28,168 bases of DNA from a virus. The notes under the pieces are model-generated. The model had not been told where the DNA came from. It saw only the letters and a program-made list of their open reading frames with translations, and searched no databases. Positions 2,474 to 28,051 of this stretch are shown one piece after another (the stretch's first letter is position 1; each line of letters opens with the position of its first letter). Location: the IMG/VR virus record IMGVR_UViG_3300010373_000112, positions 1 through 28,168 of that record; one strand, 5' to 3'. Both the position numbers and the translations under genes were made by a program.

Positions 2474-3332
2474 TCGAATAATCCGAGCCAGCCTGATAAG
2501 GAGTAGGGTGAAGCTCTTTCGTTAATCTATCAATCTGCCTCTGTTGGTTCTGCAAAATTGCCAACAACACGGGCACCAAGGCGATATAATTCACTCCTAG
2601 ATAACCATCCCCTTCATTACCTACGGCATAAGGAATGATTTTTTGAAGATCTTGAGCAATTACACCATGGCTATGACTGCCTGCCAACCTGCCTGCCAAT
2701 TCATTCCAATCAAATTCAACAGCAGGCAAATCATTCAGCACCGAATTGATCAGGTCATTGCTAATGGGTTTAACATTGTCTTTCAATCTAGCGTCTGATG
2801 GCTGGAAACCCTGAATATTACCTGTAGCATATATGTTGCCATAAACAACCACATTAGCAGATGCGCTTGTATTGCCTACCGTAACCAAATTGCTTGTAGC
2901 ATTTGCTGTGACAGTCAAAAGGCCTGTAAAGCTAGCATTAGCAGAAACAGACAGCGCATTGATCGTTGTGTTGCCTGAAACACTCAAAGTGTTTGAAACT
3001 GTCACGGCACCATTTGATGTGATGGGGCCTTTTGACTTCAAGGAGCTGGTGGAATCTAATATAACAGCTGTACTTTGAAATGTAAGATTGCCTGATGATG
3101 TGGTGATTACATTAGCAACCAATGTATAGAGAGCAATGTTGCCATTATGTGTTACTGTACCAACCGTAGCTACATAATTGTTGCCACCAAACTGCGTGCT
3201 GTTAGCAATTGAAGTGTCTGATGTTAGCACCACATTGTTAAGTGCATTAGCGGACAAGTTGGTGTTGTTCAACCATCCAGAGAAAGTTGAACCCGTATTC
3301 ACTTGCCAGATGGTGTTAGAATTAATTGCCAC
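2466..3332 (-). CDS. Tail fibre with C-terminal S74 intramolecular chaperone
   Basis: A 288-aa protein. Residues 1-175 are low-complexity, rich in N, S, T, A and V with short repeats (VSNTLSVSGN, ALSVSANASF), as expected for a beta-helical or triple-beta-spiral fibre shaft. Residues 178-270 match the peptidase S74 / intramolecular chaperone autoprocessing domain: SDARLKDNV, then F-D-W, SHGVIAQDL, P, YLGVNY, and a final coiled coil (LQNQQRQIDRL). In this family the domain drives trimer folding and then cuts itself off. The Ser-Lys pair would be S179 and K184. The start is GTG at 3332 with AAGGA eight bases upstream, overlapping the previous gene by 11 bases. It is short for a fibre, so it may be a tip or short appendage. 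Confidence 0.85.
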   Translation of the reverse strand: MAINSNTIWQVNTGSTFSGWLNNTNLSANALNNVVLTSDTSIANSTQFGGNNYVATVGTVTHNGNIALYTLVANVITTSSGNLTFQSTAVILDSTSSLKSKGPITSNGAVTVSNTLSVSGNTTINALSVSANASFTGLLTVTANATSNLVTVGNTSASANVVVYGNIYATGNIQGFQPSDARLKDNVKPISNDLINSVLNDLPAVEFDWNELAGRLAGSHSHGVIAQDLQKIIPYAVGNEGDGYLGVNYIALVPVLLAILQNQQRQIDRLTKELHPTPYQAGSDYSNA

Positions 3333-3543
3333 GAGTTAAATCCTTCAAGAGTTGCCTGATTTCATCTAAGCTTTGTTCGAGCCTATCAAGTCTAGTATTA
3401 TTTAGTTTGGCTTCTTGCAATCGCTTACGCTCAATTTTGTATGCTTCAAGCTTGCTTTTATTGGTGTTCAGTAATACGCTATGTTGACGATCAACAATGA
3501 AATCAGGATATTCTGTAGCTCTAAAGATGCATTCCTTTTCCAT
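3322..3543 (-). CDS. Small coiled-coil protein of the baseplate cluster
   Basis: A 73-aa charged protein. The N-terminus reads FRATEYPDFIVDRQHSVLLN, followed by Y-K-I-E-R-K and a C-terminal heptad pattern (LDRLEQSLDEIRQLLKDL, about residues 52-69) predicting a coiled coil. Similar short proteins (aromatic 'P-D-F/Y' start, Y-K-x-x-R middle, L-x-x-E-I-x-x-L-L end) occur beside baseplate/fibre genes of aquatic T4-like phages as I remember them, without known function. It starts 3 bases after the stop of the 547-aa gene and overlaps the fibre gene, so expression is coupled. An oligomerisation or assembly-chaperone role is inference. Confidence 0.7.
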   Translation of the reverse strand: MEKECIFRATEYPDFIVDRQHSVLLNTNKSKLEAYKIERKRLQEAKLNNTRLDRLEQSLDEIRQLLKDLTRGN

Positions 3544-3546
3544 AAG

Positions 3547-5190
3547 TTATAGAGTCAATGCTAGAGCTCTGACGTCGTTCAGCCTAGGAACTAAGTTGGT
3601 GTTAGTACCATCCACTGCTAAGATGATCTTGACAGCGAATGCTTTGAATCCAACAAATAATCCGTTTGCGTTCTGGTATTGAACAGACTGTGGTGCCCCG
3701 TTAGACACTGGCTGCCATGCAATACCATTCATGGTTGGAGTAGCAGTATCAAAGGTGAAGGCATATTCTCTGTAATCTTCCGTGTTCTTAGGATCAGAAT
3801 ATACACCAAGATTAGACGTCTGAACCAACTGCGTCCATAACTCTGAATCAAAAGAAGTAGGATCTTCTGCATTCCATATCTTTGCATAGGCATACACTTC
3901 TGTACCAGCAGGTTTGTATGCGTCAATCCAAACATTCAAGGTCTCAGCATCCATTCCTTCCGCCAGAACAATTGTTTCACTGATGTATCTTGTCAATGCG
4001 TCTCCCAAATCTCCATATTCTCCAGCCGTGTTAGCGTTAATCTGGTTGCTATACACAATCAGAGAATGCTCTTTGGTATCAACAATAGGCGACAGATAAT
4101 CAGTGTTGGAGCTCATATTAACACGCAACTGTGTTGACGAAGAAGAACCTAATGAAGCGACTTCATTGGATTTACTCAAGGCATAATGCGTAGCGTCTAC
4201 AAATTGATATTCTGTTTGAATAGGCACCGTTGTCCATGCGCTGTCTAGGACAGGTGTTGTGCCATTGGGTTTAGTAGTCCCCAAGAACTGATATGAAATA
4301 CCGGTCATACTATCAGTTGGGCTTCCAATCTTTGCTGTCAAACCATCTGTTCTAACATCATACACGCTCTGGATGGTAGAAAGAGCTTGCAGATAAGCAT
4401 TATTCAAACTACCCTCAACAGGTGCCCTTACAATCTGAACAGTCTGGCCATTGGCAAAATTACCCGTGCTGTTGTAACAATACAACAATCGGTTCGCAAT
4501 ATCATACTTAGATATTTTAGCATAGATAGATGTATTGGCTAGATTGCCTGCTGCCAGTCCATATACTTCATCACCTGCAACGATATCCACAGGACCACTC
4601 AAGAAGTTGGTGTTTGATAGCACTAAGATTTCAGTGTTGCTCTTCACCAAGCCGGCATATGCCGTGTTTGCGATATTAAACTGGGCACGATAGACAATAT
4701 ACTTCAAGTCTTCATTCGGAATTTCAGACCATACACTTGAATTCTTAGCATAGTATAATGAACCACTAGCTGGGTTTGAAGCCACTAATGAACCTGTACT
4801 GATATCTACATCTCCAGCCGCAGCTGTCCAAATCTGGTAATCAGGAGTTGCGCCTAAAGGCTTAATCACCATCGCATAAGAGGTATTAGATTGCAAGAAT
4901 ACCAAGCGATTGAATGAAAACACTGTTTGTGCTGTACCATTGCTTGAAGCTGTAACCTGCGATGGTTGCAAGCGGCATGTTGCTCCTAAAACAGGATTGG
5001 AGACGTCTGGCAAACCTTTGTTGAGATTCACCAATTGAAGCTGAACTCCGAAAGACGAAGAAACTGCACTGAAGAACAACGCAATGTCTCTTATGTATAT
5101 ACCTGATATGCCTGCTGGCGTCGAAATTGTAAAAGTTTGCGCGATTGAGGCATTAGCATAGTTAACGGATGTTTGATTTTGAGTTGCCAT
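3547..5190 (-). CDS. Virion structural protein following the DUF4815-type protein
   Basis: A 547-aa protein with no signal peptide or TM segment. The N-terminus has the pattern IAQTFTISTPAGISGIYIRD then LFFSAV, followed by repeated beta strands: N-x-G-L-P, FNRLVFLQSNTSYAMVI, GSLYYAKNSSVWS, LKYIVYRAQFN. I know this 'AQTF ... GiyI...d.FF ... W ... dLkF...raqF' layout from tail/baseplate proteins of T4-like phages, where it occurs next to, or as the C-terminal part of, DUF4815-containing proteins. It starts 12 bases after that gene here. It is probably a partner in a peripheral baseplate complex. No catalytic motif is visible. Confidence 0.7.
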   Translation of the reverse strand: MATQNQTSVNYANASIAQTFTISTPAGISGIYIRDIALFFSAVSSSFGVQLQLVNLNKGLPDVSNPVLGATCRLQPSQVTASSNGTAQTVFSFNRLVFLQSNTSYAMVIKPLGATPDYQIWTAAAGDVDISTGSLVASNPASGSLYYAKNSSVWSEIPNEDLKYIVYRAQFNIANTAYAGLVKSNTEILVLSNTNFLSGPVDIVAGDEVYGLAAGNLANTSIYAKISKYDIANRLLYCYNSTGNFANGQTVQIVRAPVEGSLNNAYLQALSTIQSVYDVRTDGLTAKIGSPTDSMTGISYQFLGTTKPNGTTPVLDSAWTTVPIQTEYQFVDATHYALSKSNEVASLGSSSSTQLRVNMSSNTDYLSPIVDTKEHSLIVYSNQINANTAGEYGDLGDALTRYISETIVLAEGMDAETLNVWIDAYKPAGTEVYAYAKIWNAEDPTSFDSELWTQLVQTSNLGVYSDPKNTEDYREYAFTFDTATPTMNGIAWQPVSNGAPQSVQYQNANGLFVGFKAFAVKIILAVDGTNTNLVPRLNDVRALALTL

Positions 5191-21434: not shown

Positions 21435-22073
21435 ATGGCGTTAGAAAGCATTTTCGATAAAATATGGCGTGAAGCTACAGCCACGAACGTCAATTTAGAA
21501 GCAAAAAACAAGCAGGCCATAAAATGGCTGGCTGATACTGTTTCTAACCGACCTGGCAGGATATCTGATCAACAACTGCATGGTGACTACAAGAATTACA
21601 AACAAGGCATCAACCAATACGACGCAGGAAACTTATATTTATTTCATTATTTCCCGAAATATCATGCAACATTGCCTTATTATGACTTGTTCCCTCTTGT
21701 TATACCACTAGAATTCTATAAAGGCGCGTCTGCTGGAAATGCAAAATTTCTTGGACTCAATTTGCATTATTTAGAACCATATAAAAGAATCAAATTATTA
21801 GACATGTTATTGCAATCATTCGAAACTACTAGTGGTAATAGGATGTTTTTGACTTACAATATGCTTAAACATGCAGCATCAAGCAATTTGTATAAACCTT
21901 GTGTAAAGATGTATTTAAAATCACAACTTCGCTCTAATTTTATTCGCATTGAAAGAAAAAATTGGGAGATAGCCGTTTTCCTTCCAGTGGCTAGATTTAG
22001 AAAGCAATCTCAACAATTCGTCTGGTCGCAATCTGACCAAATCGCAGGATTACATCATGGAAGGAAGAAATGA
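21435..22073 (+). CDS. 2: Probable DNA end protector, T4 gp2-like
   Basis: A 212-aa protein adjacent to gp4, as gene 2 is in T4. The conserved core is AGNLYLFHYFPKYHATLPYYDLFPLVIPLEF, then F-L-G-L-N-L-H-YLEPYKRIKLLDML. I know this 'Y-x-P-K-x-x-x-x-L-P-Y-Y-D-x-F-P-L-x-x-P ... G-L-N-x-H-Y-L-x-P-x-x-R-x-x-L-x-d-x-L' block from T4-like phage proteins placed by gp4; the gp2 label rests on memory and neighbourhood rather than alignment. gp2 in T4 protects the packaged DNA ends from RecBCD. The C-terminus is basic (FIRIERKNWE, HHGRKK), fitting DNA contact. Its last codons (GGAAGGAAG) supply the ribosome binding site for the overlapping HNH gene. Confidence 0.5.
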   Translation: MALESIFDKIWREATATNVNLEAKNKQAIKWLADTVSNRPGRISDQQLHGDYKNYKQGINQYDAGNLYLFHYFPKYHATLPYYDLFPLVIPLEFYKGASAGNAKFLGLNLHYLEPYKRIKLLDMLLQSFETTSGNRMFLTYNMLKHAASSNLYKPCVKMYLKSQLRSNFIRIERKNWEIAVFLPVARFRKQSQQFVWSQSDQIAGLHHGRKK

Positions 22074-22768
22074 ATATTCACCCTAGATTTATTGATTGTT
22101 TATCAACAAAGTTATATTATAAAATTATAGCCAAATATGCAAATAATTCAGAAACAGACGGCATAGCATTTGAGAACCACCACATTGTGCCAAAGTGTAT
22201 GGGAGGGAGTAATGACACTTCTAATATAGCGAGAATACCATCAAGAGTTCATTTCATCTGCCATTATCTTCTAACGAGAATGTGCGAGGAAGAGCAAGAC
22301 AAAATTAAGATGAAAGCTGCTGTCGGTGCTTTCACAATGAGATCAACTGGCAGGAACCTCAATTCGCGAGAATACGCAGTCGCCAGAAAGGGGGTTTCCG
22401 AATACATGAAAAACAGAGTCGTGTCTCAAGAAACAAGGCAAAAGATGTCAAAGTATGCAATACAGCGCAAATTAAATCCTTTCAAAGGAAAACATCATAC
22501 AGAGCGCACCAAGAATATATTATCTGAATCTAAAAAGGGAAAGAATCATCCATTCTATGGCAAAAAGAGACCAGAACATTCTCGCCGCATGAAAATAACA
22601 ATGAAAGGCCGTAAATTTTCTAACGAACATAAAAAGAACATATCTAAATCATGGCACTCTTCTAGAAAATTAGTTAAATGTTCCAATTGCGGACTAGAAA
22701 CCACAAAATCTATGAATACCAGGTGGCACGAATCAAACTGCAAAAAGAGTAACCACCACAGGATTTAA
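22070..22768 (+). CDS. HNH homing endonuclease with NUMOD3 repeats and zinc finger
   Basis: A 232-aa free-standing homing endonuclease. The HNH nuclease domain is at about 33-70: F-E-N-H-H-I-V-P-K-C-M-G-G-SNDTSNIARI, then R-V-H-F-I-C-H-Y-L-L, with H38, N52 and H61 as the likely metal/catalytic residues. Residues 115-195 hold NUMOD3-type repeats (S-Q-E-T-R-Q-K-M-S, NPFKGKHHTERTKNILSESK, HPFYGKKRPEHSRRMK, FSNEHKKNISKSW). The end has a zinc-binding C204-S-N-C207 ... H220-x3-C224 unit. The tail strongly resembles that of the GIY-YIG enzyme in operon A. The ATG overlaps the previous stop (ATGA), and the last codons carry AGGA for the next gene, so the insert is cleanly embedded in the operon. Confidence 0.88.
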   Translation: MNIHPRFIDCLSTKLYYKIIAKYANNSETDGIAFENHHIVPKCMGGSNDTSNIARIPSRVHFICHYLLTRMCEEEQDKIKMKAAVGAFTMRSTGRNLNSREYAVARKGVSEYMKNRVVSQETRQKMSKYAIQRKLNPFKGKHHTERTKNILSESKKGKNHPFYGKKRPEHSRRMKITMKGRKFSNEHKKNISKSWHSSRKLVKCSNCGLETTKSMNTRWHESNCKKSNHHRI

Positions 22769-22770
22769 CC

Positions 22771-23613
22771 ATGTTCGACATAGAAGAATTTAAAAGCAAT
22801 AATAAAATGGGGTTCAGTAGAAACTCATTTTTCTATATGATGGTTTATCCTCCTAATTTCTGGGCAGGTGAAAATACATCCTTCTTGAGCTACTTGTGTT
22901 CGGGAGCGCAGTTGCCGGGTATAAGCATCCTTGCTCCAGATGTTAATAAGTGGGGCTATGGCCCAACGCGTAAATATCCTATTGGAGTCGCTCATCCTGA
23001 TATAGCATTGACCATTTATTCAGATGGTGAAGGCAACGCGATTGACTTTTTTGATCAGTGGACTAGAAATGTTGTAACATATGGTGATCCACAAAGCGCA
23101 GTCAATGGCTCTCCATTCGGTTTGGTACAGTACCCAGACAATTACAAAACTGACATAGACTTGTTTTACATGAGCGAATCTGGTAACCCACAAGAACTCA
23201 TCCGTTGCAGGTTCATTGATGCATTTCCTATTGGAATGGGGCAGGTTAACCTTAGCTGGGCAGGGCAATCTCAAATCGCGCAATTTGTTGTGCCCTTTAA
23301 CTATCGTTCATTCTTTATCGTCAAGAATCAGGTTGATTGGGACACCGGCACTATCGTTCCAGACGGAGCTTACTACAACGATATCTATTCTCCCGTCCCA
23401 ATGGGTGACTTATTTTCGCTTTCACCTGGTTTCATAGGATTGAATGGATTAACTTCAGCATTATCTTCGTCACTACAAACGATTTTATCACCTGTTGCCG
23501 AGATATCACAAAAGCTTCAGATGGTGAGCGGAATTGTTCAGGGCGACATGATGGCCTTAAATAACGTTATTAACAATCCGGTCGCTTCTCTTGGTCTTAA
23601 TATAGGAATCTGA
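22771..23613 (+). CDS. 54: Tail-tube-fold protein, probably gp54/gp19-related
   Basis: A 280-aa protein. Residues 15-200 follow the tail tube/tube-initiator pattern: M-G-F-S-R-N-S-F-F-Y-M-M-VYPP, CSGAQLPGISI, W-G-Y-G-P-T-R-K-YPIG, D-I-A-L-T-I-Y-S-D, FFDQWTRNV, then L-I-R-C-R-F-I-D-A-F-P-I-G-M-G-Q-V-NLSW and A-Q-F-V-V-P-F-NYR. A hydrophobic/helical tail (about 215-280) is extra relative to T4 gp19 (163 aa) and nearer the size of gp54 (320 aa). Together with the gp48-like gene, this would complete the two-ring start of the tube. Main tube protein gp19 is the alternative. AGGATTTAACC precedes its ATG, with the AGGA lying inside the HNH gene. Confidence 0.6.
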   Translation: MFDIEEFKSNNKMGFSRNSFFYMMVYPPNFWAGENTSFLSYLCSGAQLPGISILAPDVNKWGYGPTRKYPIGVAHPDIALTIYSDGEGNAIDFFDQWTRNVVTYGDPQSAVNGSPFGLVQYPDNYKTDIDLFYMSESGNPQELIRCRFIDAFPIGMGQVNLSWAGQSQIAQFVVPFNYRSFFIVKNQVDWDTGTIVPDGAYYNDIYSPVPMGDLFSLSPGFIGLNGLTSALSSSLQTILSPVAEISQKLQMVSGIVQGDMMALNNVINNPVASLGLNIGI

Positions 23614-23617
23614 TATT

Positions 23618-24277
23618 ATGTCTTTGCCGCAAATCAAACACCCATTGGTTGAAGTTACAGTTCCTACTTTAAACAAAAAATTAAGATTCAGACCTTTTAC
23701 GGTTGAAGAAGAAAAGATCATGTTGATGGCAAACGCATCAGAAAAGGACACTCCTATTCTTGCAACCAAGCAGGTTATCAACAACTGCTGCGCTGATGCT
23801 ATTGATGTGGACAATCTTTCAACATTTGATATTGAATGGTTGTTTATTCAACTGCGTTCCATTTCTGTTTCAAATATGTTGGATATAGAAATCGAGAGTC
23901 ACAGAATGCAAATTGATTTGAACAAGGTGGCAATTTGCTATCCTATTGAACAAAGCAATCGGATCATGCTGTCTGACTCTGATAAGATCGGGGTTGTCTT
24001 GAAATATCCAACCTATGCCGATTTGGAGACTTATTCAGAATCTGAAAAAGCGAATTTGGTGGCTTCTGTTATCAAGAACATCTTCAGAGGAGAGGAAGTA
24101 TTTGACCTTAAAGATTATTCATCTGAAGAAATTGAAACATTCCTAAATTCCCTATCCATTTCTCAAATGAATAAGATTGAACAGTGGATCGACAATATTC
24201 CTTATGTTTATCTGGATGTTAATATGCCAGATGGTACCACGACGAGGCTCCGTGGCATCAAAACTTTTTTCGGCTGA
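23618..24277 (+). CDS. 26: Baseplate hub assembly / tail chaperone, T4 gp26-like
   Basis: A 219-aa protein of the T4 gp26 family (T4: 208 aa): PLVEVTVPTLNKKLRFRPFTVEEEKIMLMA, K-Q-V-I-N-N-C-C, L-S-T-F-D-I-E-W-L-F-I-Q-LRSISVS, and later P-T-Y-A-D-L-E-T-Y, F-L-N-S-L-S-I-SQMNKIEQWID. The 'RPF-x-V-x-E-E-K' start and 'D-x-E-x-L-x-x-x-L-R-x-x-S' are diagnostic. Its place immediately before the tape-measure-like gene, and the size and acidic character, match tail assembly chaperones (lambda gpG, P2 gpE). The last codons ACT TTT TTC GGC TGA contain a -1 slippery heptamer, so a longer product (271 aa) sharing the first 218 residues is predicted. Confidence 0.85.
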   Translation: MSLPQIKHPLVEVTVPTLNKKLRFRPFTVEEEKIMLMANASEKDTPILATKQVINNCCADAIDVDNLSTFDIEWLFIQLRSISVSNMLDIEIESHRMQIDLNKVAICYPIEQSNRIMLSDSDKIGVVLKYPTYADLETYSESEKANLVASVIKNIFRGEEVFDLKDYSSEEIETFLNSLSISQMNKIEQWIDNIPYVYLDVNMPDGTTTRLRGIKTFFG

Positions 24278-24299
24278 TGATGGGATACAATAGTATCTC
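24265..24299 (+). promoter_or_regulatory. Candidate programmed -1 ribosomal frameshift signal
   Basis: The heptamer T TTT TTC at 24265-24271 is in the correct X-XXY-YYZ phase for the gp26-like frame and lies 3 bases before its TGA. After 10 spacer bases, GGGATAC (24282-24288), loop AATA and GTATCTC (24293-24299) form a 7-bp hairpin with one G-U pair. Slippage by -1 enters the frame of the 51-aa ORF (next codons CGG CTG ATG ATG). This is the arrangement of lambda G/GT and P2 E/E' chaperones. Confidence 0.65.
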
Positions 24300-24432
24300 A
24301 AATTGGTACAACACCGTTAATGTACTAAGATTCTATCAAAAAATAAACGACGAAACTATACTAAGTTGGTTGCCTTTTGAAAGAGACATATACATGGATT
24401 TAATCACTAAAGAAATGAAGAAGAAGCAATAA
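24277..24432 (+). CDS. 51: 51-aa second chaperone ORF (T4 gp51-like region), likely made by frameshift
   Basis: This ORF is short: ATG at 24277 overlaps the TGA of the gp26-like gene (TGATG), and TAA is at 24430. The product has two N-terminal Met, then S-N-W-Y-N-T-V-N-V-L-R-F-Y-Q-K-I-N, SWLPFERDIYMDLITKEMKKK. The 'L-P-F-E-R-D-I-Y' block resembles short proteins between gp26 and the tape-measure gene of T4-like phages and the C-terminal part of two-ORF chaperones ('small residue-rich helix ... L-P-x-x-E/R ... Y'). It lies in the -1 frame relative to gp26, open back past the slippery site. It may be made as a fusion (271 aa), by reinitiation at ATG-ATG, or both. It ends 3 bases before the tape-measure gene. 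Confidence 0.65.
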   Translation: MMGYNSISNWYNTVNVLRFYQKINDETILSWLPFERDIYMDLITKEMKKKQ

Positions 24433-24435
24433 CCC

Positions 24436-26646
24436 ATGGCAATAAATCCAGAAGCAATCATTAAAGATGCAGACGCAGTTGCTGCCGTAGTAAAAGAAAG
24501 CGGCGGTTTAGGCAAAGCTGCGGATGCTGTTGCATCTAAGGTCGGCGACGCATTGCAAAGCGATAAATCTGCCAGAACATTCATGCGTGATGCAAGAGGC
24601 CGATTTACGAGTGCTGTTAAAAGCGCCGCCAAAACCACAGCTGCGGCTTCAGCTGGCGCTGCGGCAGAAAATCTTGTATCTTCTGGAAACTCCAATAATG
24701 CTGATGATCAACAACACAATGGTGCGCAACAACCTGGTCCTTCAAGAACCAAGTCTGTACCAAATCCTGGCAATGTTTCGCCTGCGGGCCGAATTGATCT
24801 GCCATCCATCACGTCTGCTGAAGATGTTGCAAGTACCGTAAATGAAGGTGATTTTCAAGACACAAGAGGATTAAAAGGTTCTTCAGGTGTTTCTAATAAT
24901 GAAGGGGTGTCTAACAGGAAACTTAACAAGATAATCAACTTGTTAGAGTCGATCTTACAAACTGAAAAGAATAGCATGAGGTTGATGGGCACAGGATTTC
25001 GGAGTGTTTCTGAAGCAATATATTCAACACATAACGCAGCGATGCGTCGTTCTGAAGCGCAGGGATTGGAAAATACCTCTTCTGGAGGCAGAGGCGGTTT
25101 CTTTGGCTCTCTATTAAGTAATCCGACCGCAGCAGGGATGGCGACACTCAAAGGCACAGGTATTGCTGTATTAGGCGCTTTTGCTACTGGAGCCACGTTG
25201 GATGCGCTGACGCACTTTAATGATAACAAGGACAAAGATAAATCTCATCCTGTTCAAGACAAGGCTGATCATGATAAGGTATTCGGCGAATACAAGAGCA
25301 AATATGGCAAGCGTTGGGCCCAGATGTTTGTTGATGATGTGCTGAATAGTTTGCAAAAGAATAAGGGGTTTCTAGAAGATTTGACTGTTTCGAAGGAACG
25401 AGCAGCAGGTGATATTTACTCTGCCTTGAAGTCATTATTTGACAAGTCAAGTAAAGCAGACCAAGCTGCAATCGTTAATCAAATTGCAGTATTGTTAAAA
25501 TTAAAGCCCGAAGATGTTCAAAAACAGATTGCTTCTGTTAATGACCCTACACGGCAAAAATTTGATGCAATTAAAGCAGGCATTGGTTCTTCTCTTTTTG
25601 ATTTTGGTGCTGACACGGTAACAATGTCCCAACAAGGGGCAGGCCTGATTGGTGGTGGCCTTTTAAACTATGCGGGCTCTGCATTGAAATATCTAGGCGC
25701 AAACACGGCTGGTGCTTATTTACAAAACAAAAGTAATGATTTTACAGACATGGAGATGGGCTCTGCTAAACAAGCCAACAAGGATATCAAAGACTGGAGA
25801 AGAGAACATACGAGCGACCAGATGCAGTTTGATATATTGAGGCATCCCGAATTATACCGAGGAGCAAAGATAGGCACAGATGTTGCTACTGTATTTGGCC
25901 CAGGAGGAAAAGGAAAACTTGGAACTAAATTATTCTTTGGCGGCGTCATGGGGCTACATGATCTACTAAGCCATACAGGACAAGAAGATATTTTTGCAGC
26001 AGCAAGACACAATGATGTTAATTTTGAGGGTACTTCGGGAAAAGGCGGTGGCAAGAAACTTACATCCAAAGAAAAAGAAAGAGCTAAAAAAGCAATCGCA
26101 TTCTTTCAAAGTAAGGGTTGGTCGAAGGATCAAGCTGCGGCAATCGTGGGTAATCTATTACAAGAAAGCAACTTAGATCCTGATATAGTCAATCCAAAGA
26201 GTGGCGCAAGAGGCATAGCACAGTGGTTAGGATCACGAGTTGATGATTTTGAACGACAAGAAAAAGTCCCTCTAAAGGGATCAAGGTTCGAACAACAACT
26301 CGACTTCGTTAATTGGGAATTGAATCATTCAGAAAAGAAAGCCGGAGACAAGATCAAGTCAACTAAAAACATACAGGACGCAACAGCATCGGTAGCAAAT
26401 GATTATGAAAGAATGGGCGCGAATGAGGCTATGATGGATAGACGCATCAGCCTTGCGCAAGCTGTTGCTAAAGGATTTGATACGGATTCTTTGAAGCCAC
26501 AGCCGCAAGTCGCATCAGCTGCTTCTCAACCTTCTCCAACCGTAATTCAACAAGGCGGCACCAATATCAGTCGCAACACAACTATTCAATCAGCTTCTGC
26601 TGCCGCTCCTCCTTACATACAAGATAGCGTAGCATCAGCAATTTGA
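24436..26646 (+). CDS. 29: Tape-measure/hub protein (gp29-like position) with C-terminal tail lysozyme
   Basis: A 736-aa protein directly after the chaperone ORFs. The first 200 residues are Ala/Ser-rich and helical. A glycine-rich hydrophobic stretch at about 234-258 (GTGIAVLGAFATGATLDAL) and another near 402-430 (GLIGGGLLNYAG) are typical of tape measures that cross the host membrane. Residues 545-690 form a phage tail lysozyme-type domain: FFQSKGWSKDQAAAIVGNLL, Q-E577-S-N-L-D-P, GARGIAQWLGSR and later A-N-D-Y-E-R. E577 is the likely catalytic acid. A length of 736 aa would fit a tail of roughly 110 nm if the whole chain were stretched (about 1.5 A per residue), an upper guess. T4 gp29 (590 aa) has no such domain; T4 places lysozyme in gp5, whose homologue here lacks it. 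Confidence 0.75.
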   Translation: MAINPEAIIKDADAVAAVVKESGGLGKAADAVASKVGDALQSDKSARTFMRDARGRFTSAVKSAAKTTAAASAGAAAENLVSSGNSNNADDQQHNGAQQPGPSRTKSVPNPGNVSPAGRIDLPSITSAEDVASTVNEGDFQDTRGLKGSSGVSNNEGVSNRKLNKIINLLESILQTEKNSMRLMGTGFRSVSEAIYSTHNAAMRRSEAQGLENTSSGGRGGFFGSLLSNPTAAGMATLKGTGIAVLGAFATGATLDALTHFNDNKDKDKSHPVQDKADHDKVFGEYKSKYGKRWAQMFVDDVLNSLQKNKGFLEDLTVSKERAAGDIYSALKSLFDKSSKADQAAIVNQIAVLLKLKPEDVQKQIASVNDPTRQKFDAIKAGIGSSLFDFGADTVTMSQQGAGLIGGGLLNYAGSALKYLGANTAGAYLQNKSNDFTDMEMGSAKQANKDIKDWRREHTSDQMQFDILRHPELYRGAKIGTDVATVFGPGGKGKLGTKLFFGGVMGLHDLLSHTGQEDIFAAARHNDVNFEGTSGKGGGKKLTSKEKERAKKAIAFFQSKGWSKDQAAAIVGNLLQESNLDPDIVNPKSGARGIAQWLGSRVDDFERQEKVPLKGSRFEQQLDFVNWELNHSEKKAGDKIKSTKNIQDATASVANDYERMGANEAMMDRRISLAQAVAKGFDTDSLKPQPQVASAASQPSPTVIQQGGTNISRNTTIQSASAAAPPYIQDSVASAI

Positions 26647-26656
26647 GATCAAACCC

Positions 26657-27085
26657 ATGACAGACAATTCTCAACCCAACTTTCCTGATCCTAGTAACAT
26701 TTCAGACCCCATTTTAAGAGCCAAGGTTACTTATCTACTAGAGAAGTCGCTGCTTCAGTTGGAAGCGCAAAGATGGCGTGCGAGGCGCTTTATGGCATGG
26801 GTTTCGTTAGCGGCAATCCTGACATTCACTGCAAGCATGCTATTCTTTGTAAAACCCACCATTATGGCGTCCTTAACAGATGTAGTGACGTGGTTTTATT
26901 TGTCCACTACATCTATCATCGGTGTTTACATAGGCAGCAGTGCTCTAACCTATATTGCTGCAATCAAAGCAAAAATCGTACCTGCGTCAGCCACTATTTC
27001 AGACATTTCCCCATCGAGCATCATAACCCCATTTGATGAGCTAGAGAAAGAGTTTCTAGCAAAAGCAAAGAAACCAACTAGCTGA
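26657..27085 (+). CDS. Small two-TM membrane protein, possible holin
   Basis: A 142-aa protein. A charged N-terminal helix (residues 17-45) is followed by TM1 at about 46-64 (MAWVSLAAILTFTASMLFF), a short K-P loop, and TM2 at about 75-102 (VVTWFYLSTTSIIGVYIGSS and on). A soluble C-terminal tail ends in K-E-F-L-A-K-A-K-K. The 'W-F-Y ... I-I-G-x-Y-I-G-S-S' segment resembles small phage membrane proteins often called holins, but nothing here proves pore formation. It starts 10 bases after the tape-measure gene and is last in operon B. Its 3' end overlaps the 3' end of uvsY on the other strand by 8 bases. It might instead be a superinfection-exclusion or virion membrane protein. Confidence 0.6.
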   Translation: MTDNSQPNFPDPSNISDPILRAKVTYLLEKSLLQLEAQRWRARRFMAWVSLAAILTFTASMLFFVKPTIMASLTDVVTWFYLSTTSIIGVYIGSSALTYIAAIKAKIVPASATISDISPSSIITPFDELEKEFLAKAKKPTS

Positions 27086-27518
27086 CGCCGTTCTGAAATT
27101 TCATGAAGTTGATGGCCGTGCTGATTTGAAAAGTACGATTGCTGATGATTTTAATGATGCTATCCAGCGCACTTACCTTTTCAGTCTGCATGGCCAAACG
27201 AGATTTCAATAGAATACAATCATCATCTGCTTCTAGAATTTCATCAACCTGATTCTTAAGTGGAGTTGCTTTAAGCCAAGGTTTCCAACCTTCGGCGTCA
27301 AGCTCTTGCTTATTCATTTCTCCTAATACCCATGCTCGCTTCTTTGATTTCAGCTGAATGAAATCATTCTGAAGCTTTTGCAGAAGGAGTTTTTGCTGAA
27401 CATAAAGACGCAGATACTTGGCATGCAGTACAGATATTTCAATTGCACAATTATCTAAATGTGATTTGTCTATCTTTGCGTCTTTGTCCCATTCTTCTAA
27501 GAGTTGATCAAGCGTCAT
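27078..27518 (-). CDS. uvsY: Recombination mediator UvsY
   Basis: A 146-aa protein from ATG at 27518 (TTG at 27527 would add three residues and overlap the previous stop). It matches UvsY (T4: 137 aa) along its length: L-D-Q-L-L-E-E-W-D-K-D-A-K-I-D, L-D-N, V-L-H-A-K-Y-L-R-L-Y, a basic K-K-R-A-W segment, A-E-G-W-K-P-W, and the C-terminal helix pair with I-I-K-I-I-S-N-R-T-F-Q-I and A-I-N-F-M-K-F. UvsY hexamers bind single-stranded DNA and load UvsX recombinase onto gp32-coated DNA for recombination-dependent replication. In T4 uvsY lies next to genes 25 and 26, so its closeness to tail genes here echoes that order. Cotranscribed with the tube-fold gene. Confidence 0.9.
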   Translation of the reverse strand: MTLDQLLEEWDKDAKIDKSHLDNCAIEISVLHAKYLRLYVQQKLLLQKLQNDFIQLKSKKRAWVLGEMNKQELDAEGWKPWLKATPLKNQVDEILEADDDCILLKSRLAMQTEKVSALDSIIKIISNRTFQISTAINFMKFQNGVS

Positions 27519-27523
27519 CGCTA

Positions 27524-28051
27524 TCAATACGAAGTTTTCAGTTGCGTTATAGTAAACTGTCTGTAAACAAAATTAACAGTTGACTCCACATAATTCACTC
27601 TTGTGTCAGCAACATTGGCCACGAATCCAGTTAATGACTTAGGGAGAACATCAACAAAACTTGCTCGCAAGATGGGTTGTTTATGATAGTCAAGAATATC
27701 GAGCGTCAAATCTGAGTAGAGGTCGCGTATTTTACCAGATGGTTCAACATTTACTCTGTCTTGAAAAGATTTTGGAAATCCTATTCCATATAACCAGTTG
27801 TATATTTCTAACCAGTTCTTCATCATCGCATCTACCTTGAATGTTATAGCCAGCTCTTCAAATGAAGCCTTGTCTGCGGGCAGAGGAATAGGTACGAATG
27901 GCGTCTGAAGTGAAGGATTGTTGACAGCCAATCCTGGCAATTGAACAGCTGTCACCATGAAGGAAACAGACGGCAATTTCTGAATAGTCAATTCAAAGTG
28001 AAGTGACGCTAGGAAATCTGCTGCCGGCGTATTAATTGTTGGGCTCGTCAT
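27524..28051 (-). CDS. Tube-fold minor tail/baseplate protein
   Basis: A 175-aa protein. Pattern: F-L-A-S-L-H-F-E-L-T-I-Q-K-L-P-S-V-S-F-MV, V-Q-L-P-G-L-A-V, T-P-F-V-P-I-P-L-P-A-D-K, F-E-E-L-A-I-T-F-K-V-D, M-K-N-W-L-E-I-Y-N-W-L-Y-G-IGFP, then Y-S-D-L-T-L-D-I-L, F-V-D-V-L-P-K-S-L-T-G and a last beta strand. The 'x-x-P-G-x ... L-x-I-x-F-x-V-D ... N-W-L-E-I-x-x-W-l-x-G-x-x-F-P ... D-v-l-P' order is that of a structural family I know from T4-like phages with a tail-tube fold. It is not the usual gp19. AAAAGGA stands seven bases before the ATG. Exact place in the virion is unknown. Confidence 0.65.
   Translation of the reverse strand: MTSPTINTPAADFLASLHFELTIQKLPSVSFMVTAVQLPGLAVNNPSLQTPFVPIPLPADKASFEELAITFKVDAMMKNWLEIYNWLYGIGFPKSFQDRVNVEPSGKIRDLYSDLTLDILDYHKQPILRASFVDVLPKSLTGFVANVADTRVNYVESTVNFVYRQFTITQLKTSY

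Follow-up and report, generated by a model that had tools for sequence, protein, structure and literature searches.

Gene organization around the gp26-like gene

The analyzed sequence was a 28-kb virus contig (IMG/VR IMGVR_UViG_3300010373_000112), referred to below as the window, which means the whole stretch of 28,168 nucleotides. An open reading frame (ORF) at positions 23618 to 24277 on the plus strand encodes a 219-aa gp26-like protein, the putative short form (TAC-N) of a tail assembly chaperone, which matched PF12322 (T4_baseplate; E 1e-41) and phrog_150 (E 2e-43). This ORF scored 143.3 bits with the PF12322 profile against a curated cut-off of 24.5, and by its sequence it is a member of the T4 gp26/gp51 family PF12322. 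A tail-tube family protein (22771 to 23613, plus strand; phrog_45 tail tube, E 3e-27) is encoded upstream, in the position of lambda V. The gene downstream, in the position of lambda H, encodes a tape measure protein (24436 to 26646, plus strand; phrog_9570 tape measure, E 8e-36), whose C-terminal part contains a phage tail lysozyme domain at residues 548 to 679 (PF18013, E 1e-29). The gene order in the window is tail tube, chaperone, extension (described below), and tape measure.

The rest of the window is largely a T4-like baseplate region, with genes for wedge proteins, a hub lysozyme-type protein, a tail tube cap, a head closure protein, and a DNA end protector. A gene for a homing endonuclease that has NUMOD3 repeats (22070 to 22768, plus strand; phrog_655, PF07460) separates the gene for the gp2-like end protector from that for the tail-tube protein; near the same region, a NUMOD3 protein is found in Vibrio phage 1.081.O (L040) and an endonuclease in DLP6 (L027). 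A second tail-tube family protein (phrog_45) is encoded on the minus strand at 27524 to 28051, adjoining a UvsY-like gene (27078 to 27527, minus strand).

Slippery heptamer and overlapping reading frames

The 3' codons of the gp26-like ORF are ATC AAA ACT TTT TTC GGC TGA. The heptamer T_TTT_TTC at positions 24265 to 24271 (plus strand) has the form X_XXY_YYZ in the zero frame and is phased for −1 slippage. A first-pass annotation of the window had pointed out this in-phase heptamer ahead of the gp26-like stop codon, and it was borne out base for base. In-phase T_TTT_TTN is scarce in the window, with three occurrences per 9148 coding positions. The zero-frame stop codon TGA (24275 to 24277, plus strand), the predicted end of the short form, overlaps an ATG at 24277 to 24279 (TGATG). 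From 24271 to 24432 on the plus strand, the −1 frame encodes a putative C-terminal (T-like) domain of a predicted long form (TAC-NC). The ORF that begins at ATG 24277 has 51 codons and ends with TAA at 24430 to 24432, followed by three bases and then the tape measure ATG at 24436; the coordinates given earlier for an open −1 frame of 51 codons reaching to three bases ahead of the tape measure gene were thus confirmed. The predicted fusion is 271 aa long with the junction ...KTFFRLMMG, the same product that the first-pass annotation had derived, and it was reproduced from the sequence as a prediction. Upstream of the slip site, the −1 frame remains open for approximately 14 more codons, back to TAA at 24220.

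Conservation of the junction

A scan of IMG/VR with the gp26-like protein yielded 25 relatives. All of them have T_TTT_TTY in phase, starting 7 to 16 nt before the gp26 stop codon, and a homologous open −1 frame. The comparison was widened with isolates infecting Synechococcus, Prochlorococcus, Sinorhizobium, Caulobacter, Ochrobactrum, Delftia, Stenotrophomonas, Cronobacter, Aeromonas, Rhizobium, and Vibrio and with 80 further loci from a profile search, giving a pooled set of 113 distinct junctions. Relatives that lack the heptamer or carry the second ORF in another frame had been named beforehand as evidence against a frameshift, and the search for them across this set left the proposal standing: T_TTT_TTN occurred in one phase at 110 of the 113 distinct homologous junctions, and the downstream domain was in the −1 frame at all 107 junctions where it was detected. 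Because of these two counts, chance is rejected as the origin of the junction layout on the basis of the compared sequences. When the junctions were clustered at 50% identity, the slip site was kept in 56 of 58 clusters; elsewhere in these genes, T_TTT_TTY was used at 3 of 55 Phe-Phe sites (Fisher p = 6e-26). Viruses with the −1 layout include isolates of Kyanoviridae, Straboviridae (S13, phiAS5, and Vibrio 1.081.O), Emdodecavirus, Pootjesviridae, and Ionavirus. Conservation across very divergent relatives extends to the heptamer and its phase as well as to the domain, both in its −1 frame and in its protein sequence.

In Vibrio phages K474 and 1.244A (both with CTT TTT before the stop codon) and Pseudomonas phage Cygsa01 (ATT TTC), the heptamer is absent and the −1 ORF is kept, with an overlapping ATG in all three. 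In these phages, a weaker slip in the P site or translational coupling may operate. The heptamer-less junctions of the Vibrio and Pseudomonas phages sit at approximately 3193 to 3250 in L036, 3184 to 3240 in L042, and 3273 to 3340 in L146.

Identity and selection of the −1 extension

The −1 ORF of the window matched phrog_634, "baseplate hub assembly catalyst" (E 5e-10), and also weakly matched the C-terminal end of phrog_150 (positions 246 to 281 of 282). The model of the extension is all-helical, with a mean pLDDT of 77.7. The extension is 74% identical at the amino acid level to that of L002, the nearest relative of the window. The nucleotide changes between the two are distributed as 10, 5, and 23 over the first, second, and third codon positions of the −1 frame. 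Because of this distribution, the −1 frame behaves as a translated frame, and it is under purifying selection as judged from the comparison with L002.

Start codons in the extension

The extension could instead be a separate small gene that is translated through TGATG stop-start coupling, the heptamer being incidental. From the window genome alone, re-initiation is possible, as the 51-codon ORF opens with an ATG at 24277. This ATG overlaps the stop codon in the window and likewise in L002, the junction is annotated as two genes in GenBank records of relatives, with the extension named "gp51" in several of them, and the three phages that lack the heptamer have an overlapping ATG. However, within 14 codons 3' of the slip site the extension lacks ATG in 84 of 107 relatives (36 of 53 at the cluster level), and it has none of ATG, GTG, and TTG there in 60 of 107 (27 of 53 clusters). 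In L011, the earliest possible start is codon 45 of the 60 codons in the extension. Where no start codon is present near the beginning of the −1 domain, as in these 60 relatives, the sequences suggest that the domain can hardly be made except via frameshifting. In addition, coupling would leave unexplained the one-phase heptamer in 56 of 58 clusters, since Phe-Phe can be encoded otherwise, and T4-type phages have the domain fused in frame. A Shine-Dalgarno (SD)-like stretch directly before ATG 24277 was not found in the window sequence. A TGATG-coupled independent gene is therefore improbable and was rejected as the main route, given the number of relatives without a start codon. In the window and L002, in which an ATG overlapping the stop codon precedes the extension, re-initiation could nevertheless add free C-terminal domain to the frameshift product.

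Candidate stimulatory elements near the slip site

A hairpin on the plus strand at positions 24281 to 24300, 9 nt after the heptamer, is a candidate stimulator, with 8 bp (UGGGAUAC/GUAUCUCA, including one G-U pair) and the loop AAUA. Its 7-bp core (GGGATAC at 24282 to 24288 and GTATCTC at 24293 to 24299, with the loop AATA) was found at the position that the first-pass annotation had given for a 7-bp hairpin, and the pair T24281-A24300 extends it to 8 bp. The 60 nt 3' of the heptamer had a folding energy of −14.8 kcal/mol (z −2.66), and 3 of 200 shuffled sequences were equally stable. The corresponding structure in L002 is weaker than that in the window (z −0.75). In the relatives, the mean z 3' of the heptamer was −1.11 compared with −0.25 in control regions, and strong hairpins were present in S-PM2 and P-SSM2.

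An SD-like stretch lies approximately 8 to 16 nt 5' of the heptamer in the relatives. Its pairing, scored against a general bacterial 16S tail, was stronger than synonymous re-coding predicts, with a mean difference of −1.6 kcal/mol (Wilcoxon p 2e-7, 56 clusters). In the window, a strong SD-like element upstream of the slip site was not found (pairing of −2.6 kcal/mol, weak). An internal SD element resembling GGAGGG is seen 5' of the slippery site in many relatives, e.g., L029, L033, L031, and L019. Slippage at frameshift sites of the dnaX type is stimulated by an SD-like element and a hairpin, and by analogy the SD-like and hairpin elements described here may stimulate slippage.

The long form could also arise from slippage of RNA polymerase, not the ribosome, on the run of T residues. 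This run is 7 to 8 residues long in 30 of 56 clusters, which speaks for the polymerase, but it consists of only six T residues in the other 26 and in the window. Furthermore, the first T of the run occupies codon position 3 in every one of the 56 clusters; ribosomal slippage at X_XXY_YYZ needs this phase and transcriptional slippage does not. The SD-like and hairpin elements near the site also fit a ribosomal mechanism. Transcriptional slippage is thus disfavored by the fixed codon phase and the 6-T runs, and appears very improbable. That the second domain is a decayed relic without expression, or the product of a sequencing error, is scarcely credible and was rejected by comparison with the relatives, since nothing but the separate genes of T4 speaks for it and both the purifying selection on the −1 frame (10/5/23 against L002) and the recurrence of the layout in 107 junctions speak against it.

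Predicted fold of the gp26-like protein

The AlphaFold2 model of the gp26-like protein had a mean pLDDT of 89.8. When residues 1 to 94 of the model were compared with solved structures, the best matches were 3fgx (Z 8.0), YqbN (3klu; Z 7.0), and the HK97 tail assembly chaperone (2ob9; Z 6.9), although Z values of 7 to 8 fall in the range where the aligner warns that a match may reflect a common arrangement. The next chains were 5ir0 (Z 5.2) and 6vek (Z 4.2). A Foldseek search of the PDB with the model gave no match with E < 0.001; the HK97 chaperone ranked 11th and was raised only by the second aligner. A search of the gp26 profile against the sequences of solved structures gave nothing credible. 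Because the best solved-structure matches of the model include the HK97 chaperone, though at moderate scores, the gp26-like protein is probably a tail assembly chaperone.

Proposed mechanism

The layout of the junction, its conservation, the frame of the extension, the chaperone-like predicted fold, and the two-domain protein gp51 of T4 support a live −1 programmed ribosomal frameshift that would yield a tail assembly chaperone of two lengths, as in the lambda G/GT system. We assign this reading a probability of approximately 0.92. The first-pass annotation had left the choice between a relic and a live version of the G/GT system; the conserved heptamer, its phase, the −1 frame, the protein sequence of the domain, and the missing start codons favor the live version.

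Most ribosomes would terminate at TGA 24275 and produce the 219-aa short form. A minority would slip back by one base at T_TTT_TTC, where tRNA-Phe can re-pair in the P site (TTT to TTT) and the A site (TTC to TTT). The hairpin 9 nt downstream probably aids this slip. The slipped ribosomes would continue in the −1 frame to make the 271-aa long form with its helical C-terminal domain. If the two forms act like lambda gpG and gpGT, the short forms would coat the product of the adjacent tape measure gene, and the few long forms would use their C-terminal domain to recruit tail-tube subunits.

Relationship to known tail assembly chaperone systems

The locus resembles lambda G/GT, as well as P2 E/E' and the set of Xu, Hendrix, and Duda (2004), in that the chaperone gene lies between the tail-tube and tape measure genes. 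Further points of likeness to lambda are the −1 slippery heptamer close to the 3' end, the short C-terminal domain encoded in the −1 frame, and, with moderate scores, the match to the HK97 chaperone fold. On the other hand, the chaperone here belongs to the T4-type family PF12322 and is approximately 220 to 240 aa long, and its heptamer is T_TTT_TTY, whereas that of lambda is GGGAAAG. The likeness to lambda G/GT is drawn from layout and fold, not from sequence homology to lambda G.

A study by Vladimirov, Gautam, and Davidson (2022; Virology 566:9) reportedly identified the tail assembly chaperones of T4-like phages, and its title is said to propose a mechanism other than frameshifting. In the summary given by the PRFect paper, some T4-like phages have, according to that study, a short gene as well as a long gene that is fused (PMC10885494), and another paper cites it for slippery poly-T stretches within T4-like TAC-N genes (PMC12846349). 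As represented by these sources, it shares with the present analysis the subject of T4-like tail chaperones and differs in its stress on a separate fused gene in some of the phages. In Vandenendeviridae and Andersonviridae, a conserved −1 frameshift of the tail chaperone also occurs at a poly-T motif, but the motif is GTTTTT and the phage families are others (PMC12846349). The gene order of lambda is tube, chaperone, extension, and tape measure, and Atkins et al. (2016) stated that the G-T frameshift is widely conserved in long-tailed phages "except T4" (PMC5009743). No direct description of a gp26/gp51 frameshift was found in the literature searched, in which Vladimirov et al. (2022) was represented by papers that cite it; the frameshift has very probably already been described for part of the T4-like phages.

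Counterparts in T4 and copy number of the family

T4 gp51 (249 aa) contains a full PF12322 protein at residues 1 to 201, and its residues from approximately 200 to 246 match the profile of the −1 extension. Since T4 gp51 is a full gp26-like copy with the C-terminal domain in frame, the 51-aa ORF of the window is, by its sequence, the C-terminal domain of gp51 and not the gp51 gene. The earlier view of a T4-like 26/51 pair holds insofar as gp26 and gp51 are separate genes in T4, but the 51-aa ORF corresponds to only a part of gp51; T4 gp26 is homologous to the short form and T4 gp51 to the complete long form. The "gp51" of cyanophages and their relatives, a separate gene in the inspected records, would be better annotated as the C-terminal part of the predicted frameshift product.

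T4 differs from the window in that its gp26 and gp51 genes are on opposite strands and no heptamer is present at the end of gene 26. In KP15, 44RR, Melin, JSE, and Pm5461, gp51 carries both domains in frame, as in T4. All six of these T4-type phages have two PF12322 copies, and the slippery heptamer is absent from the gp26 genes of the six genomes. In the scanned phage records with the −1 layout, one copy was found in 17 of 17, and no separate full-length gp51 gene was seen in the 28-kb window. Judged by sequence, a second gene takes the place of the frameshift in T4, which needs no frameshift.

In the phylogenetic tree, the single-copy form occupies one side of a branch with a support of 98/99, and S13, phiAS5, and Vibrio 1.081.O, which belong to Straboviridae, are on that side. 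The tree is unrooted, and we infer the direction of change. We lean towards a history in which the frameshift is ancestral and prevailing in the T4 superfamily, stimulated by SD-like and hairpin elements in proportions that vary among lineages, and in which the T4-type phages lost the slip site after gene duplication had given rise to gp26 and gp51. If this is true, T4 is the exception that hides the rule. The same recoding layout extends across most of the T4-like diversity sampled, and the exception of T4 looks like a two-gene split by duplication. In Klebsiella phage KP15 (L142, positions 3001 to 4295), gp51 and gp26 are in tandem on one strand with gp51 first, in contrast to the divergent genes of T4, and this arrangement is perhaps closer to the original duplication.
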